Below, piece by piece: positions 10,960 through 19,272 of a DNA stretch of 64,000 nucleotides. Source of the stretch: an uncultured Rhodospirillales bacterium (GTDB taxonomy: Bacteria; Pseudomonadota; Alphaproteobacteria; CAAGCB01; CAG-977). The notes beneath the pieces are model-generated. The model was not told the origin of the DNA. It worked only from the letters and a program-made list of their open reading frames with translations, and searched no databases. The position numbers and the translations under genes were made by a program. The stretch spans positions 1 through 64,000 of the forward strand of contig CACYSU010000006.1 of the NCBI GenBank assembly GCA_902777205.1, written 5' to 3'. How positions within the stretch are numbered: position 1 is the stretch's first letter; each line of letters opens with the position of its first letter.

Positions 10960-10996
10960 CGTTGACTCTGTATAATGGAATAAGATAACGTTGAAA

Positions 10997-12424
10997 ATGA
11001 TGCGTATTAAAAAAAACAGCCTGTGTCAAACAAAAAGATCGGCCTTTCCCCTTTTGACAAAAACAGCGGGAACGGGCGTTTTGGCGTTGACGCTTTTTTG
11101 CGTTCCGTCCGCGGCGCGGGCGGGCGGCGATCCGCTGTCGGCCGAACGGGCGGTGACGGCGCCGGCGTGTCGGGAAACGGCGCAAAACACCCCGCTGCGG
11201 TTGGGTGACGCGGTCAATCTGGCGCTGTGCCGCAATCCGGAAACGCGGCGGCTGTACATGGGGGTGATGGCCGCGGCCGCCGAATACGGGCAGGCGAAGG
11301 CCGATTACTGGCCGACCGTCGATCTGTCGGCGGGGGTGGCGCATTCCGGCCGCCACATCCGCGGCGGGGGCGAAACGGACGCTGACACGGCGACGGCGCG
11401 GCTGTCCGCGCAATGGCTGCTGTACGATTTCGGCGGGCGCGAAGCCGCGGCGCAATCCGCGCGCCAAGCTTTGGCCGCCGCGCTGGCGACGCGGTCGGAC
11501 GCGCTGCAGGGAATGATTTTCGACGTGGCCGAGGCGTACTATCTGGTGTTCGCCGCGCAGGCCGAACAAAAAAATTCGCGCGCGACGCTGGACGCCGCGC
11601 AGTCGGCCTATGACGCCGCCGCCAAACGCTACGATCTGGGGCTGGCCGCCCTGTCGGACAGGCTGCAGGCCGAAACGTCGCGGTCCGAAGCGCAGCTGAC
11701 GGTCGCCAAGGCGGACAGGGCTTTGGCCATCGCAAAGGGGAATTTGGCCGTTTTGATGAACTATTCCCCCGATTACGATCCGGAATTGGCGTCGGAAGAG
11801 CTGCCCGCCGGTTTTTCGGATATGCCGGACGACATCGACGCTTTGTTCAAAACGGCGCTGAACCGCCGCGCGGACATCGCGGCGCAAAAGGCCGCCGTCG
11901 AACAGGCGCGTTCCGATATCGCCGTGCAGGAATCGAAAAACGCGCCGTCCCTTTCCCTGTCGGCCGGATTGGGCGCGGACAAGGAATTGACGCGCGACAA
12001 AACGCGCGCGCGTTCCGACAATATCGGGGTGTCGCTGACCGTTCCTTTGTTTACGGGGTTCAAAAACACCTACCGGATCAATCAGGCGCGCTATCGGCTG
12101 GAACAAAGCGAAGCGGCGCTGAAAAAGCTGGAAAGCAATGTGAAAAACGAGGTCTGGACAACCTACCAGAACTTTTTCACCGCGAAAAAAACGTACGAGA
12201 TTTCTCAAACCATGCTGGCGTCGGCCGACCAGAACGCGCAGGTCGCGCTGGGGGCGTACAAGGCGGGGCGCGGCAGCATCCTGAACGTTTTGGACGCGCA
12301 ATCGAAACTGGCGGACGCGCGGACGACGAACAGCCGGTCGCTTTACGAACTGCTGATCGCCAGAACAAACATCGTCAGAAAAATCGGGCTGATCGACCCG
12401 TTCAAAGCCGGAAAAGGATTTTAA
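10997..12424 (+). CDS. TolC-family outer-membrane efflux protein
   Basis: About 475 aa. The Sec signal peptide has a hydrophobic core GVLALTLFCVPSAARA ending near residue 40. Two outer-membrane efflux repeats follow (LRLGDAVNLALCRNPE at the start of the first) with long coiled-coil helices. It forms the outer-membrane duct for the adaptor and ABC proteins encoded directly downstream. The start is uncertain: ATG 10997 or 11000, or TTG 10991; none has a strong Shine-Dalgarno. A TATAAT at 10971-10976 serves as -10. MacA begins 3 bases after the stop. Confidence 0.88.
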   Translation: MMRIKKNSLCQTKRSAFPLLTKTAGTGVLALTLFCVPSAARAGGDPLSAERAVTAPACRETAQNTPLRLGDAVNLALCRNPETRRLYMGVMAAAAEYGQAKADYWPTVDLSAGVAHSGRHIRGGGETDADTATARLSAQWLLYDFGGREAAAQSARQALAAALATRSDALQGMIFDVAEAYYLVFAAQAEQKNSRATLDAAQSAYDAAAKRYDLGLAALSDRLQAETSRSEAQLTVAKADRALAIAKGNLAVLMNYSPDYDPELASEELPAGFSDMPDDIDALFKTALNRRADIAAQKAAVEQARSDIAVQESKNAPSLSLSAGLGADKELTRDKTRARSDNIGVSLTVPLFTGFKNTYRINQARYRLEQSEAALKKLESNVKNEVWTTYQNFFTAKKTYEISQTMLASADQNAQVALGAYKAGRGSILNVLDAQSKLADARTTNSRSLYELLIARTNIVRKIGLIDPFKAGKGF

Positions 12425-12427
12425 CCG

Positions 12428-13576
12428 ATGAAAAAGACTTTGATCATTTTAATCGTTTTGGCTCTGGCGGCCGGCGGGTTTCTGTATTACCGCCACGCGA
12501 CGAAACCGGCGGCGGCCGTTTACGACACGACGACCGTGACCAAGGGCGACATCCGCGTTGACGTTTCCGCGACCGGCACGATCCAGCCCGTCAACATTGT
12601 CAGCGTCGGCACGCAGGTGTCCGGCATCATCGAAAAGGTTTACGTCGATTACAACGACGCCGTCAAAAAGGGCGATTTGATCGCGCAGCTGGAAACCTTT
12701 ACGCTGGAAGAGGATTTGAAAGAGGCGCGCGCCGCCGTCACCGACGCCAAAGCGCGGCTGGATTACGCCCGATTGAACGCCAAACGCAACCGCGAACTGT
12801 TCAAACAGAATTTCATCGCCCGCTATGAATCCGAAGAGGCCGATCTGGCCGCCGTGAACGCGCAGTCCGCGTATGACAAGGCCGTCGCCCAGGAACGCAA
12901 GGCGAAACGCAATCTGGGCTATGCGAACATCGTTTCCCCCGTTGACGGCATCATCGTCACCCGCGTGGTCGAGGAAGGCCAGACCGTCGCGTCGTCGTTC
13001 CAAACGCCGGAGCTGTTCACGATCGCCGAGGATTTGACGAAAATGCAGATCGAAGCCCAGATTTCCGAAGCCGACATCGGCCAGATCAAACAGGGGCTGC
13101 CGGTCGATTTCACCGTTGACACGTTTCCGTCCGACACGTTCAAAGGCACGGTGTCCCAAGTTCGCCTGCAGCCGACGGAGGATTCCAAGGTCGTCATGTA
13201 CACGGTCGTCATTTCCATTTCCAACGACGATCTGCGCTTGCTGCCCGGCATGACGGCGTATGTCACGATCACGGTTCAGGAAAAGCGCGACACCTTGAAA
13301 TTGCAGAATATGGCGTTCCAATTCCGTCCCTCGGAAAAGGGCGTCAAAACCAAAAAGAAAGGCAACCGCCGGTCGAACGAGGAACGGCGCCGCATCATCC
13401 GCGAACGCAAATCCTTGAAACCCGATCAGGCGATCGTGTATGTGCTGGAAAACGGCGCGCCCGCCGCCCGCACCGTGACCAAAGGCATTTCCAACCTGCT
13501 GGACACGGAGATACTGGACGGGTTGAAAGAGGGCGACAAAGTCGTTTTAGAGGATTTGTCGGACAATCCGGCCTGA
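12428..13576 (+). CDS. macA: MacA-like periplasmic adaptor of an ABC exporter
   Basis: 382 aa. It has one N-terminal membrane anchor (about residues 4-22), a lipoyl/barrel-sandwich half (VSVGTQVSGIIEKVYVDYNDAVKKGD), a coiled-coil hairpin (about 95-170), the second lipoyl half (SPVDGIIVTRVVEEGQTV), a beta-barrel and a membrane-proximal domain. This is the MacA/HlyD order. A basic insert, VKTKKKGNRRSNEERRR, near residue 300 is unusual for MacA and interrupts the membrane-proximal region. It links the inner-membrane ABC complex to the TolC-like duct. Confidence 0.88.
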   Translation: MKKTLIILIVLALAAGGFLYYRHATKPAAAVYDTTTVTKGDIRVDVSATGTIQPVNIVSVGTQVSGIIEKVYVDYNDAVKKGDLIAQLETFTLEEDLKEARAAVTDAKARLDYARLNAKRNRELFKQNFIARYESEEADLAAVNAQSAYDKAVAQERKAKRNLGYANIVSPVDGIIVTRVVEEGQTVASSFQTPELFTIAEDLTKMQIEAQISEADIGQIKQGLPVDFTVDTFPSDTFKGTVSQVRLQPTEDSKVVMYTVVISISNDDLRLLPGMTAYVTITVQEKRDTLKLQNMAFQFRPSEKGVKTKKKGNRRSNEERRRIIRERKSLKPDQAIVYVLENGAPAARTVTKGISNLLDTEILDGLKEGDKVVLEDLSDNPA

Positions 13577-13592
13577 ACGGGGATCGCGCGCC

Positions 13593-14312
13593 ATGCCTGA
13601 AAAAGTCATTGAAATCAAAGACGTGTGCAAAACCTACTTTATGGCCGGCGGCATGAAGCAGGACGTGCTGAAACACGTCGATATGACGGTGGAACGCGGC
13701 GAATTCGTCGCGATCATGGGGCCGTCCGGCGCGGGCAAATCCACGTTTATGAACATTCTGGGGTGTCTCGACCGGCCGACAAGCGGGACTTACATCCTTG
13801 GCGGCAAAGAGGTTTCCGCCATGACCGACGCGGAGCTGGCGCGCATCCGCAACCGGATGATCGGGTTCGTTTTCCAAGGGTTCAACCTGTTGATGCGCCG
13901 CACGCTGACGGACAACGTCGCGCTGCCCCTGATTTACGCCGACGACACGGACAAGGCCGGACGGATCAAACGCGCCGTCGAAAAGCTGGAGCTGGTCGGG
14001 CTGCGCGGATTTACCGACCGCTATCCCAACCAGATATCCGGCGGAATGCAGCAGCGCGTCGCCATCGCGCGGGCGTTGATCAACGCGCCGGAAATGATTT
14101 TGGCCGACGAACCGACCGGCAATCTGGACAGCAAAACCAGCGACGAAATCATGCTGTTTTTGCAGCAGCTGAACCGTGACCGCGGCATTACGATCGTGCT
14201 GGTCACCCACGAACCCGACATCGCCGCCTATGCCAAGCGGCTGGTCAGAATCGTTGACGGCCGGATCGCTTACGACGGGGATGTCAAAGCTTATATGGAA
14301 CAGCAGAAATGA
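13593..14312 (+). CDS. MacB/LolD-type ABC transporter ATPase
   Basis: 239 aa. Walker A GPSGAGKS (about 41-48), the Q-loop in FVFQGFNLL, signature SGGMQQR, Walker B MILADEPTGNLD and the H-loop VTHE are all intact. It belongs to the MacB/LolD/FtsE group that powers mechanotransmission-type exporters. In this operon the ATPase and permease are separate genes (as in YknY/YknZ), whereas E. coli MacB is one fused chain. The stop overlaps the permease ATG (ATGA). Confidence 0.9.
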   Translation: MPEKVIEIKDVCKTYFMAGGMKQDVLKHVDMTVERGEFVAIMGPSGAGKSTFMNILGCLDRPTSGTYILGGKEVSAMTDAELARIRNRMIGFVFQGFNLLMRRTLTDNVALPLIYADDTDKAGRIKRAVEKLELVGLRGFTDRYPNQISGGMQQRVAIARALINAPEMILADEPTGNLDSKTSDEIMLFLQQLNRDRGITIVLVTHEPDIAAYAKRLVRIVDGRIAYDGDVKAYMEQQK

Positions 14313-15526
14313 TGATCGGATCCGTTTTTCACGAGGCCTGCCTGTCCATGACGGGAAACAAACTCCGGTCGTTTTTGACGACGTTGGGGATCATCATCGG
14401 CGTGTGCGCCGTCGTGATGATGGTCGCCGCCGGCCAAACGGTGCAGAACATCATTCAGGAACGGTTCGTCGCAATGGGGGCGAACCTGCTGATCATCCAT
14501 TCCCAACGCCCCAAAGCGGCCGTCCGAACGTCGGGGCCCATGACCTCAATCACTTTGGACGACGCGCTGGCCATGAAAAAACTGCGCGGCATGGATGTCG
14601 TCGCGCCCGTCCTGCAAACCAGCCGGCAAGCCATCAACGGCCCCAACAACTGGAGCGTTTCAATCATCGGCACGACGCCGGATTATTTGAAAACGGCCAA
14701 CTGGGAAATCGCCGCCGGCCGCGGATTGGACGATCAGGATATCAGACGCGGGACGACGAACGTCGTCATCGGCGCCGAAGTCGTTTCCGAACTCTATCCC
14801 TACGAAGACCCGCTGGGCAAAACGATCCGCATCGGCAACCAGCCGTTCAATATCGTCGGCGTTTTAAAGGAAAAAGGGTCGAATTCCGGCGGCGCGAATC
14901 AGGATTCGTCCGTGATGATGCCGCTTTTGACCGTCCAGCGCCGGTTCAACCGGTACGCCAAACTGAACGCCGTCAACCATATCGCCGTCAAATTTTCGGA
15001 AACGGAAAATCTGAACGTCGTCGAACGGCGCATTTCGCGCTTTTTGCGTGCCCGCCATAAAATCAAGGACGAAGACCCCGACGATTTCCGCATTTTCAAC
15101 ATCGCCGAATTTGTTGAAAACATCCGGCTGGTCGGCACGGTGCTGTCGGTTTTGCTGGCGGCGATCGCGTCCATTTCACTGGTCGTCGGGGCGATCGGCA
15201 TTGTGAACATGATGCTGGTTTCCGTGACCGAACGCACGCGCGAAATCGGCATCCGCAAAGCTTTGGGCGCGCCGAATGGGTGGATCATGCTGCAATTTTT
15301 GTTTGAAGCGGTTCTGATCTCCATGGTCGGCGGCACGATCGGGCTGGTTTTGGGGATCGGATTGTCGCAGCTGGGCGGGTATTGGTACGATGTCCGCGTT
15401 CCGTTCAGCCTGTGGCCGGTGGCGCTGTCGTTTACGGTCGCGCTGGTCGTCGGCGTCGTTTCCGGCGTCTTTCCGGCCTATAAGGCGATGAAGCTGGATC
15501 CGATCGAAGCCCTGCGGTATCAGTAA
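14309..15526 (+). CDS. MacB-type ABC transporter permease
   Basis: 405 aa. An N-terminal membrane helix (LRSFLTTLGIIIGVCAVVMM) is followed by a large periplasmic MacB_PCD domain (about 50-270) and three C-terminal FtsX-type helices with the conserved GIRKALGAP and the ending KAMKLDPIEALRYQ. With the ATPase, MacA and TolC genes it completes a tripartite exporter, probably for a peptide, lipid or drug. A strong bidirectional terminator follows 25 bases after the stop. Confidence 0.9.
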   Translation: MMIGSVFHEACLSMTGNKLRSFLTTLGIIIGVCAVVMMVAAGQTVQNIIQERFVAMGANLLIIHSQRPKAAVRTSGPMTSITLDDALAMKKLRGMDVVAPVLQTSRQAINGPNNWSVSIIGTTPDYLKTANWEIAAGRGLDDQDIRRGTTNVVIGAEVVSELYPYEDPLGKTIRIGNQPFNIVGVLKEKGSNSGGANQDSSVMMPLLTVQRRFNRYAKLNAVNHIAVKFSETENLNVVERRISRFLRARHKIKDEDPDDFRIFNIAEFVENIRLVGTVLSVLLAAIASISLVVGAIGIVNMMLVSVTERTREIGIRKALGAPNGWIMLQFLFEAVLISMVGGTIGLVLGIGLSQLGGYWYDVRVPFSLWPVALSFTVALVVGVVSGVFPAYKAMKLDPIEALRYQ

Positions 15527-17210: not shown

Positions 17211-18476
17211 TCATTTCACTTGCCTGCCGGCGCTGTAAACGGCGGTGATGTTGTGTTTGTCCATCAGATAGACCGCGCGTTCAAAACGTTCCGCGACGGA
17301 CAATTTTTTCGCCGGTTTGGGCAGGTCGGCGTCGTCAACGACGATCGCGTGCAGTTCGTCGCCCGCCGCGAATCCTTCGCCCGCGCCGAAAAACTTCGCG
17401 CCGCCCGTCGTGCCCAGATAAAACGCTTCGGCGACGGTCAGGAAATCGTCCGTCCAATTCGTTTCGATGCGTTTGACCTTTGACGCGCGGATCGCGGCCG
17501 TGACGACTTTGTTCATCGCCAGCAGCGCGCCGCCCGCGATGTCCGACCCCAGCGTGACGCGCACGCCCTCTTTGACCATTTGGCGCACGGGGGCGGTGCC
17601 GCTGATCAGGTTGACGTTGGAATCGGGGCAGTGCGCGACCCACACGCCGTTGTCCTTCATCGCTTTGCGTTCGCGGGCGTCGGAATGGACGCAGTGCGCC
17701 ATCACGGTGCGGTCGTTGAACAGCCCGTATTTGGCGTAGCTTTCCCAGTATTGGGCGCAATCGGGGTGCAGTTCCTTGACCCACGCGATTTCCGACGTGT
17801 TTTCGGACAGGTGCGATTGGACGGGCAGCTTTCTTTCCGCCGCCAGCTTGCCCAGAAAAGCCATCAGTTCGTTCGTGCAGGTCGGCGTGAACCGCGGGGT
17901 CAGGATCGGTTTGACGTGGTCGAACCTGTCCGACGCCTCGTCCAGCCAGAGCATCGTTTCGCGCATGGATTCTTCGGTCGTTTCGGTCAGCACGTCGCCG
18001 GAGTTCCTGTCCATGTTGACTTTGCCGACGTATCCCGTCAATCCGGCGTTTTCAAATTCCTCCATCAAAATCATGGTTGATTCGCGGTGCAGGGAGGAAA
18101 AGGCGCACACGCGGGTCGTGCCGTCGGCGATCATTTCGCGCGCCAAAGCCCGATACACTTCGCGGGCGTAGGCGGTGTCCTTGAACGCGGCTTCGGTATT
18201 GAACGTGTAGGTGTTCAGCCAGTCCAGCAAAGGCAGATCCATTCCCATGCCCAGCATCGCGTATTGCGGGGCGTGCATATGCGTGTCGGCAAACGACGGC
18301 ATGATGATCCGGTCGCCGTAATCAACCGTCAGCGCGTTTTTGTATTGTTCGGGAACGTCCTGAAAAACGCCGGCGATTTTGCCGTTATCCAGCACGATGC
18401 ACCCGTTTTCCAAAACATCCAGTTTTCCGAACGCGGGGGCGTGGACGATGTGGCCTTTGATAACCTGAACAGTCAT
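17211..18476 (-). CDS. guaD: Guanine deaminase
   Basis: 421 aa from ATG 18476 (MTVQVIKGH), which has AAAGGATC upstream; in-frame starts farther upstream fall in the riboswitch terminator. Amidohydrolase zinc ligands are present: FADTHMHAPQ (H-x-H), QSHLSEN, MAHCVH and the catalytic Asp of TLGSDIAGG. It converts guanine to xanthine in purine catabolism or salvage. It is transcribed alone from a strong promoter through a guanine-type riboswitch and terminator, which supports the substrate assignment independently. Adenosine kinase and adenosine deaminase genes elsewhere in the window add to purine salvage. Confidence 0.93.
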   Translation of the reverse strand: MTVQVIKGHIVHAPAFGKLDVLENGCIVLDNGKIAGVFQDVPEQYKNALTVDYGDRIIMPSFADTHMHAPQYAMLGMGMDLPLLDWLNTYTFNTEAAFKDTAYAREVYRALAREMIADGTTRVCAFSSLHRESTMILMEEFENAGLTGYVGKVNMDRNSGDVLTETTEESMRETMLWLDEASDRFDHVKPILTPRFTPTCTNELMAFLGKLAAERKLPVQSHLSENTSEIAWVKELHPDCAQYWESYAKYGLFNDRTVMAHCVHSDARERKAMKDNGVWVAHCPDSNVNLISGTAPVRQMVKEGVRVTLGSDIAGGALLAMNKVVTAAIRASKVKRIETNWTDDFLTVAEAFYLGTTGGAKFFGAGEGFAAGDELHAIVVDDADLPKPAKKLSVAERFERAVYLMDKHNITAVYSAGRQVK

Positions 18477-18499
18477 GATCCGATCCTTTGCAAAGCATA

Positions 18500-18538
18500 A
18501 AAAAATGTCCGCAAGCCGCTGAACGGGCTTTTCGGACA
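18500..18538 (-). terminator. Riboswitch expression platform (intrinsic terminator)
   Basis: On the minus-strand RNA, GUCCG (18537-18533) pairs with CGGAC (18511-18507), enclosing an AAGCC/GGCUU stem and followed by A and seven U. It starts one or two nucleotides after the aptamer P1 3' strand and could extend into it through G-U and A-U pairs with the U tract. Confidence 0.8.
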
Positions 18539-18600
18539 CTCATAGCAGAACACGGACTTAGTTCAGTAGAAACTTCCCCCGACGGGCGGAATTATATGAG
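18539..18600 (-). promoter_or_regulatory. Purine (guanine-type) riboswitch aptamer
   Basis: Read on the minus strand. P1 is CUCAU (18600-18596) with AUGAG (18543-18539). J1/2 is AUAAU. J2/3 contains the invariant GUUUCUAC. J3/1 ends CUAUG. The position equivalent to nucleotide 74 is C, which specifies guanine over adenine. P2 (UUCC...GGAA, about 18 nt) is shorter than in the xpt or add aptamers. P3 is GAAC/GUUC with loop UAAGUCCGU. G precedes C74 where A73 is usual. The core, the promoter, the terminator and the downstream guanine deaminase all agree. The shortened P2 and altered loops make it a divergent member. Confidence 0.85.
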
Positions 18601-18611
18601 CCTTCACCGTT

Positions 18612-18640
18612 TTTATAATCACCCGCCCGCCCGAAGTCAA
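18612..18640 (-). promoter_or_regulatory. Promoter of the riboswitch-guanine deaminase transcript
   Basis: Minus strand TTGACT (18640-18635), 17-bp spacer, TATAAA (18617-18612). The predicted start is about 4 nt before the aptamer P1. Confidence 0.85.
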
Positions 18641-18660: not shown

Positions 18661-19272
18661 TCACGCGTCTTTGACGGCGATGGCGTCGATGAACGCGCAA
18701 TCGCCGAAATAATCCCCCGTCGTTTCCGAAACGGCGGCGTCGGCGAAACCGGACAGCACGTCCGCCATGTATCCGGCGGTGAAGAAATGACGGACGTATT
18801 CCGCGCGGTACATATTTTCGCCGACCCGTTCGCCGACGCCGAACATCGGGTCTTCGACCGATTTGCACCGCACGAAAAACAATCCGCCCGCGCGCAGGGA
18901 TGCGTGAACGCCGGCGACGATCCGCCGCGTCACGGCGTCGCCGAAATAGTGCAGGGAAAGGCAGGCGAAAACGGCGTCGTATTTTTCTTTGCCGAAATCC
19001 GCGGCCGTCATGTCGGCGCGCATCGTTTCGATTTTCGGATGACGGAAGCTTTCGACTGATTCAAGGGCGGTGTCCGAAACGTCGCAGGCCGTGACGTTCA
19101 TCCCGTTCGCGGCGAAAAACAAAGCGTTGCCGCCCGTGCCGCATCCCAGATCCAAAACGGCGTGAAAATCCTTTATTTTCATCAGCTGCAACGCTTTGAC
19201 GGCAAAGGGCGAGGGCGCGAAATCCCGCGACCATTTCGCCCAGTTGGCGTTCCAAAATTCCCGTCCGTCCAT
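18661..19272 (-). CDS. Class I SAM-dependent methyltransferase
   Basis: 203 aa. Motif I VLDLGCGTGGNALFFAA (about 39-55), the acidic motif II in VTACDVS, and a DAVFACLSLHYF motif IV-like segment show a Rossmann methyltransferase. It is of the general TehB/Methyltransf_25 kind. The substrate is not evident. AAAGGGG lies just before the ATG. It is divergent from the thioesterase gene (62-bp gap) and upstream of, but separately transcribed from, guanine deaminase, whose promoter lies in the gap. Confidence 0.8.
   Translation of the reverse strand: MDGREFWNANWAKWSRDFAPSPFAVKALQLMKIKDFHAVLDLGCGTGGNALFFAANGMNVTACDVSDTALESVESFRHPKIETMRADMTAADFGKEKYDAVFACLSLHYFGDAVTRRIVAGVHASLRAGGLFFVRCKSVEDPMFGVGERVGENMYRAEYVRHFFTAGYMADVLSGFADAAVSETTGDYFGDCAFIDAIAVKDA

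Follow-up and report, generated by a model that had tools for sequence, protein, structure and literature searches.

A probable guanine riboswitch upstream of the guanine deaminase gene in a genus of Alphaproteobacteria

Purine riboswitches are widespread in Firmicutes and have been found in one or two lineages of Proteobacteria, which probably acquired them by transfer (PMC3766115, PMC2258182). The pocket of the guanine-I class is marked by U22, U51, and C74, and purine-riboswitch variants with other ligands have been described, among which guanine-II and xanthine-II have insertions in J2-3 and J3-1, with xanthine-II also carrying the change U51G (PMC9295807). These two classes, 2'-dG-III (PMC9295807), and the 8-oxoguanine riboswitches have the same scaffold as the element described here, and some of them are ON switches at purine-degrading genes. 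Our search of the open-access literature yielded neither a purine riboswitch in Alphaproteobacteria nor a guanine riboswitch associated with guaD, an absence that is weak evidence. We describe a candidate of this kind in the window (the whole 64,000-nt stretch of alphaproteobacterial DNA that we analyzed) and in the other genomes of its genus, the records of which are mostly rumen and gut metagenome assemblies.

On the minus strand, to which all coordinates of this locus refer, the sequence runs from the end (18661) of a class I methyltransferase gene (open reading frame, 18661..19272) through a promoter, an aptamer, a terminator, and the ribosome site AAAGGA (18489-18484) to guaD (17211..18476, start at 18476), which encodes a predicted guanine deaminase of 421 aa. 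The initial annotation had placed a promoter, a purine-aptamer core, and a terminator upstream of this gene; all three are present, and its letters and coordinates proved correct. The sigma-70-type promoter (18612..18640) consists of TTGACT at -35 (18640-18635), a 17-nt spacer, and TATAAA at -10 (18617-18612), and it escaped our consensus promoter scan because the rule used there requires the -10 hexamer to end in T. The promoter TTGAC[A/T]-17-TATA[A/G]A recurs in all seven congeners, ending 10-12 nt 5' of CUCAU. Judging from the promoter, transcription in the window should begin near 18605, a few bases 5' of P1. Elsewhere in the window, on the plus strand (10991-15526), the list of open reading frames contains apparent TolC-like, HlyD/MacA-like, ABC ATPase, and MacB-like genes in a row, which we read as an export system.

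The aptamer (18537..18602) is located by the Rfam Purine model RF00167, by a model of clostridial leaders (R2, see below), and by its recurrence in all seven congeners, and it lies 60 nt 5' of guaD. As in the xpt-type guanine-I aptamers of RF00167, P1, P2, and P3 are arranged as a three-way junction with three joining regions, and a terminator follows. The P1 5' strand CUCAUA (18595..18600; sequence, fold, and alignment) faces the 3' strand UAUGAG (18539..18544), with a possible extra wobble pair G18601-U18538, and in the predicted folds the GAG of the 3' strand can instead pair with the U run and so form the terminator foot. Alignment to RF00167 and to A1, our alignment of 54 guaD leaders, gives U22, A23, and A24 (UAA) as J1-2 (18592..18594), and the alignments place GUUUCUAC in J2-3 (18566..18573), with U47 at 18572, U51 at 18568, and A52 at 18567; both joining regions agree with the xpt type, as does C74 (18545), the ligand-pairing position at which C means guanine. 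The window aptamer differs from that type in its score of 26.9 bits, its alphaproteobacterial host, its gene (guaD), and its likely ON direction. It differs further in P2/L2 (18574..18591; fold and alignments), which is built of UUCC/GGAA, a G-G mismatch, two C-G pairs, and the 4-nt loop CGUC, in P3/L3 (18547..18565; alignments), which has a basal U-U closing the GAAC/GUUC helix and the loop AAGUCCG, and in G73 (18546), which with C74 makes up J3-1 (18545..18546; alignments). The intrinsic terminator (18499..18541; folds) has the arms UGUCCG/CGGACA (18538-18533 with 18511-18506), an inner stem, and then seven U (18505-18499).

The enzyme itself matches TIGR02967 better by far than any other family (E 5e-103, 345 bits), with the cut-off of 375 unreached, and phmmer aligns it along its whole length (367 bits) with PDB 2i9u, a clostridial cytosine/guanine-deaminase-related protein. 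By family and by similarity to 2i9u, it is likely that guanine is the substrate. The window genome has a xanthine/uracil-type permease, and in a search with one family the xanthine dehydrogenase domain PF02738 was not found there, so that GuaD may serve salvage or overflow and not full catabolism, the xanthine probably being salvaged or released instead of oxidised.

The covariance search with the Rfam Purine model that the initial annotation had proposed gives a divided answer. RF00167 matches the window over its full length at 26.9 bits against a gathering score of 37 (E 0.05 genome-wide, with no other match up to E 10 in the genome of 1.94 Mb), and its scores for the three matched congeners are 30.3-35.7 bits. 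The only Rfam matches in the window that reach the gathering threshold are tRNAs; low-score matches to snoRNA and microRNA families were rejected as chance. The alignment suggests that the RF00167 score is lost mainly in the loops. A gathering score is set by curators and does not describe structure; L022, a guaD leader from Clostridia whose loops are canonical, also stays below 37 at 36.2 bits, and some clostridial guaD leaders exceed the threshold. We collected relatives of guaD at 80 loci, most of which belong to gut Clostridia (Oscillospiraceae and relatives), and extracted 48 distinct clostridial aptamers, mostly directly 5' of guaD. The R2 model was made from 46 clostridial guaD leaders and contains no alphaproteobacterium; the L078 aptamer, which precedes an upstream hydantoinase-like gene, was excluded from the models, and no evidence for the window is drawn from its score with the R1 model, in which it is included. 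With R2, the held-out window scores 41.5 bits (genome E 2.2e-7, the E-values being rough), again as the sole match in its genome, and the seven congeners score 41-50 bits. We take this match, which is an independent test and lies well beyond chance, to be decisive for homology. A missing significant Purine-model hit, which the initial annotation named as grounds for refutation, is thus seen with the stock Rfam model alone and not with R2. Chance resemblance to the purine core, which the score under the Rfam gathering threshold might suggest, is refuted by the R2 search and by the presence of the element at the same place in all seven congeners, and its probability is negligible. One other RF00167 match, L005 in G010 (E 0.38), was rejected; its core is not intact, it does not lie 5' of guaD, and it is absent from the R1 and R2 matches.

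Covariation in P1-P3 among relatives, which the initial annotation named as a check, is found across the guaD leaders as a whole, although it is missing within the genus. In A1, 11 of the 18 pairs show two-sided changes, with 104 two-sided cells against 25 in shuffles, and 95.5% of cells are paired compared with 38-58% when the partners are slid. The seven alphaproteobacterial leaders, taken by themselves, have helices too alike to covary and show no two-sided change, so the covariation signal comes from the Clostridia.

The proposal that an alphaproteobacterium has a purine aptamer of the guanine type 5' of guaD is supported. Its pocket letters U22, U47, U51, A52, and C74 are those of guanine-I and are invariant in the seven congeners, and U48C in G004 is an exception in the core that falls outside the pocket letters. 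P1 and the joining regions are likewise of the guanine-I type. C74 is present in all aligned guaD leaders, and U74, the mark of an adenine aptamer, is therefore absent. An aptamer with a shifted ligand preference (for example for hypoxanthine, xanthine, 8-oxoguanine, or a nucleoside) might be suspected from the remodelled L2/L3, the U-U at the base of P3, and G73, given that variant classes are known on the same scaffold (PMC9295807). Every ligand-contacting position is nevertheless that of guanine-I. J2-3 has 8 nt including U51, J3-1 has 2 nt, and neither has insertions like those of guanine-II and xanthine-II; more generally, the window aptamer lacks the insertions or pocket changes of guanine-II, xanthine-II, and 2'-dG-III (PMC9295807), and in the Rfam search the 2'-dG model has no match to the window. 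Position 73 is G in 32, A in 8, and U in 8 of the 48 distinct clostridial guaD leaders, and since G is thus the commonest letter there, G73 is no mark of a new class. We consider a shifted preference quite unlikely, and the suggestion of the initial annotation that this may be a variant class is not supported. The sequence is most likely that of a true guanine-I riboswitch, which would make guanine the ligand, and it does not demonstrate a new class.

The loops depart further from the canonical type. P2 was said to be about three nucleotides shorter than usual and the kissing loops to be altered, and both statements agree with our alignments: P2 and L2 together span 18 nt, as against 21 in xpt, and the canonical L2-L3 contact is missing in the window genome. 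Read by eye, the alignments show the canonical letters in the clostridial guaD leaders, where L2 ends in GG and L3 contains CC. In three congeners (G003, G005, and G006) the letters are reversed, L2 ending in CC and L3 beginning with GG, a swap that would keep the L2-L3 contact. In the window genome (G000) and the remaining three congeners (G001, G002, and G004), L3 reads [A/G]AGUCCG and L2 has loops of 4-7 bases around CGU, with no canonical GG/CC contact visible by eye. An alternative pairing of the terminator loop GUUCAG with the P3 5' strand, and of GUCCG in L3 with a terminator arm, was rejected, as it is not kept in the congeners.

The distribution of the leader is narrow. In each of the seven congeners guaD is present and is preceded by the leader, whereas the R1 and R2 searches find the aptamer in none of five genomes from sister genera, even though three of the five have the same GuaD at 69-73% identity. 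In one sister-genus genome (G007, locus L109) the same kind of methyltransferase gene end lies upstream of guaD, and a promoter recognized by eye (TTGATT-17-TATAAA) is followed by a short plain leader, 80 nt 5' of guaD, that has no aptamer; G007 and the window's genus therefore form a natural pair with and without the leader. Under strict filters, which weak cases may escape, no aptamer was found beyond the window's genus among 385 alphaproteobacteria sampled across the class, and the 398 Pseudomonadota scanned gave matches, outside the window's genus, in a single genus of Gammaproteobacteria. The gammaproteobacterial matches include an aptamer with U74 located 5' of adenosine deaminase (L127 and L131), a good positive control; we take this genus to be Vibrio, and these two loci to be the Vibrio add riboswitch. 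The add switch is an ON switch that acts on translation. It resembles the window element as a purine aptamer of Pseudomonadota 5' of a purine deaminase gene, and differs from it in U74, in its ligand (adenine), and in the unrelated enzyme. In one gammaproteobacterial genome a purine aptamer match (L126, near 1500) lies 5' of a purine-permease-like gene, unlike its relatives L127 and L131.

Riboswitch control of a catabolic deaminase, which had been thought new for this class, is accordingly less novel than proposed, given the adenine-type aptamer 5' of adenosine deaminase in the gammaproteobacterial genus and the common association with guaD in gut Clostridia. What is new is a known kind of guanine-sensing switch in an unexpected lineage, with short, remodelled L2/L3 loops that amount to an unusual loop-loop contact.

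Relatives of GuaD at 58-69% identity are nearly all clostridial, and matches in other alphaproteobacteria are only 32-37% identical. In the GuaD tree, the proteins of the window's family form one clade (100/97) among clostridial ones. The simple reading is that guaD was transferred from outside the class into the ancestor of the family, gut Clostridia being the nearest relatives and a likely source of the donor. The leaderless sister-genus proteins do not form one clade, so that either one gain of the leader in the genus or two losses would account for the tree. The aptamer-terminator junction UAUGAGUG[U/C]Y is common to clostridial and alphaproteobacterial leaders, which speaks for descent of the entire leader from a source shared with the clostridial guaD; the leader probably came with guaD and was lost in the sister genus, and its later gain in the window's genus is possible. 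Because the orthologous locus of the sister genus has a promoter and no aptamer, one may also imagine that the switch crossed between phyla and came to lie 5' of guaD independently of the coding sequence, and that the window subclade has given up the canonical L2-L3 contact for a new loop pairing or none, possibly with altered ligand selectivity, a combination that is speculative and, in our judgment, unlikely.

The initial annotation left open whether the terminator makes an ON or an OFF switch, and the clostridial relatives point to ON. These leaders share with the window the gene family, the aptamer, the terminator junction, and the place of the element (about 60-290 nt 5' of guaD), and differ in keeping the GG/CC kissing contact and a strong overlap between P1 and the terminator. 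In each of the 49 folded clostridial leaders at least 2 nt of the P1 3' strand belong to the terminator, closing P1 costs the terminator 6.5 kcal/mol on average in these folding calculations, and such an overlap is, as modelled, an ON-switch arrangement. The corresponding overlap in the window is GAG:UUU, made of weak G-U and A-U pairs, with a computed cost of 3.2-3.7 kcal/mol. Forcing P1 abolishes this foot, and for the A directly 5' of the U run the computed pairing drops from 0.99 with P1 open to 0.16, while the core and inner stem of the terminator survive in the fold. The predicted overlap is also weak in G002 and G004, and there is none in the predicted folds of G003, G005, and G006. From the strong reuse of the P1 3' strand by the terminator in Clostridia and its weak reuse in the window, together with the physiology, we predict an ON switch with moderate confidence.

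The opposite arrangement is an OFF switch of the xpt type, in which guanine-bound P1 would free the downstream hairpin and, without ligand, another pairing would block the terminator. It would accord with the minimum-energy folds of the window and G005, which hold P1 and terminator together, with the lack of overlap in G003, G005, and G006, and with the guanine riboswitches of C. difficile, which are OFF switches (PMC11477304). No conserved antiterminator is visible by eye in the window or its congeners, however, and almost no transcribed sequence lies 5' of P1 from which one could form; moreover, all 49 folded clostridial guaD leaders have the P1-terminator overlap, and to stop removing guanine when guanine is high would make little physiological sense. 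We regard an OFF switch as rather unlikely.

It is also conceivable that the aptamer is a decaying relic, inherited with guaD and no longer switching here, so that the leader would act as a constitutive attenuator. The short L2, the weak terminator overlap, and the absence from the sister genus could be read in this way, as could the lack of a U-run terminator in G001, the other six congeners having kept theirs. The core argues otherwise: 23 of its 25 columns are invariant across the genus, compared with 12 of 120 fourfold-degenerate columns of guaD (49% identity at such sites), which suggests strong constraint on the aptamer. The spacing between promoter and aptamer is nearly fixed, and the L2/L3 swap to CC/GG is kept in three congeners. 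A relic thus seems improbable. In G001 (L092) the aptamer is intact without the U-run terminator, and this copy may act on translation or be decaying.

The observations for a riboswitch are the homology of the purine aptamer, the conserved pocket, the fixed place 5' of guaD, the promoter, and the terminator; counting against it, or against the ON direction, are the weak overlap, the G001 terminator, the missing covariation in the alphaproteobacteria, the loops, and the unreached Rfam and TIGR02967 cut-offs. On balance we think it probable that the element is a cis-acting guanine riboswitch of the ON type through which guanine turns on the enzyme for its own breakdown, guaD and probably its leader having come from outside the class. 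RNA polymerase would start a few bases 5' of P1 and make the aptamer first. Bound guanine would hold P1 closed and keep UAUGAG from the terminator foot; with the foot blocked, transcription would continue into guaD, and the deaminase would remove guanine. Without guanine the complete terminator would form, and guaD expression would be low.

The guaD leaders of gut Clostridia and of the window's genus make up a set in which the evolution of an expression platform from strong to weak overlap, the swap (GG/CC to CC/GG) or loss of the kissing contact, and the possible joint transfer of a riboswitch and its gene between phyla can be studied. They also indicate that the Rfam threshold for the purine family misses real members with altered loops. 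Two further loci came to light among the relatives. The purine aptamer L078 (473-540, in a Bacillota genome), with a strong held-out score of 73.7 bits, heads an apparent operon in which a hydantoinase-like amidohydrolase gene is followed by guaD. To our knowledge, 8-oxoguanine riboswitches are known only from Paenibacillaceae. Two Oscillibacter genomes (G392 and G399; loci L113, 1509-1580, and L116) have a second purine aptamer, with C74, located 5' of a gene for 8-oxoguanine deaminase (NF006055, 576 bits, cut-off 532); its core looks guanine-like, and its terminator takes in the whole P1 3' strand.
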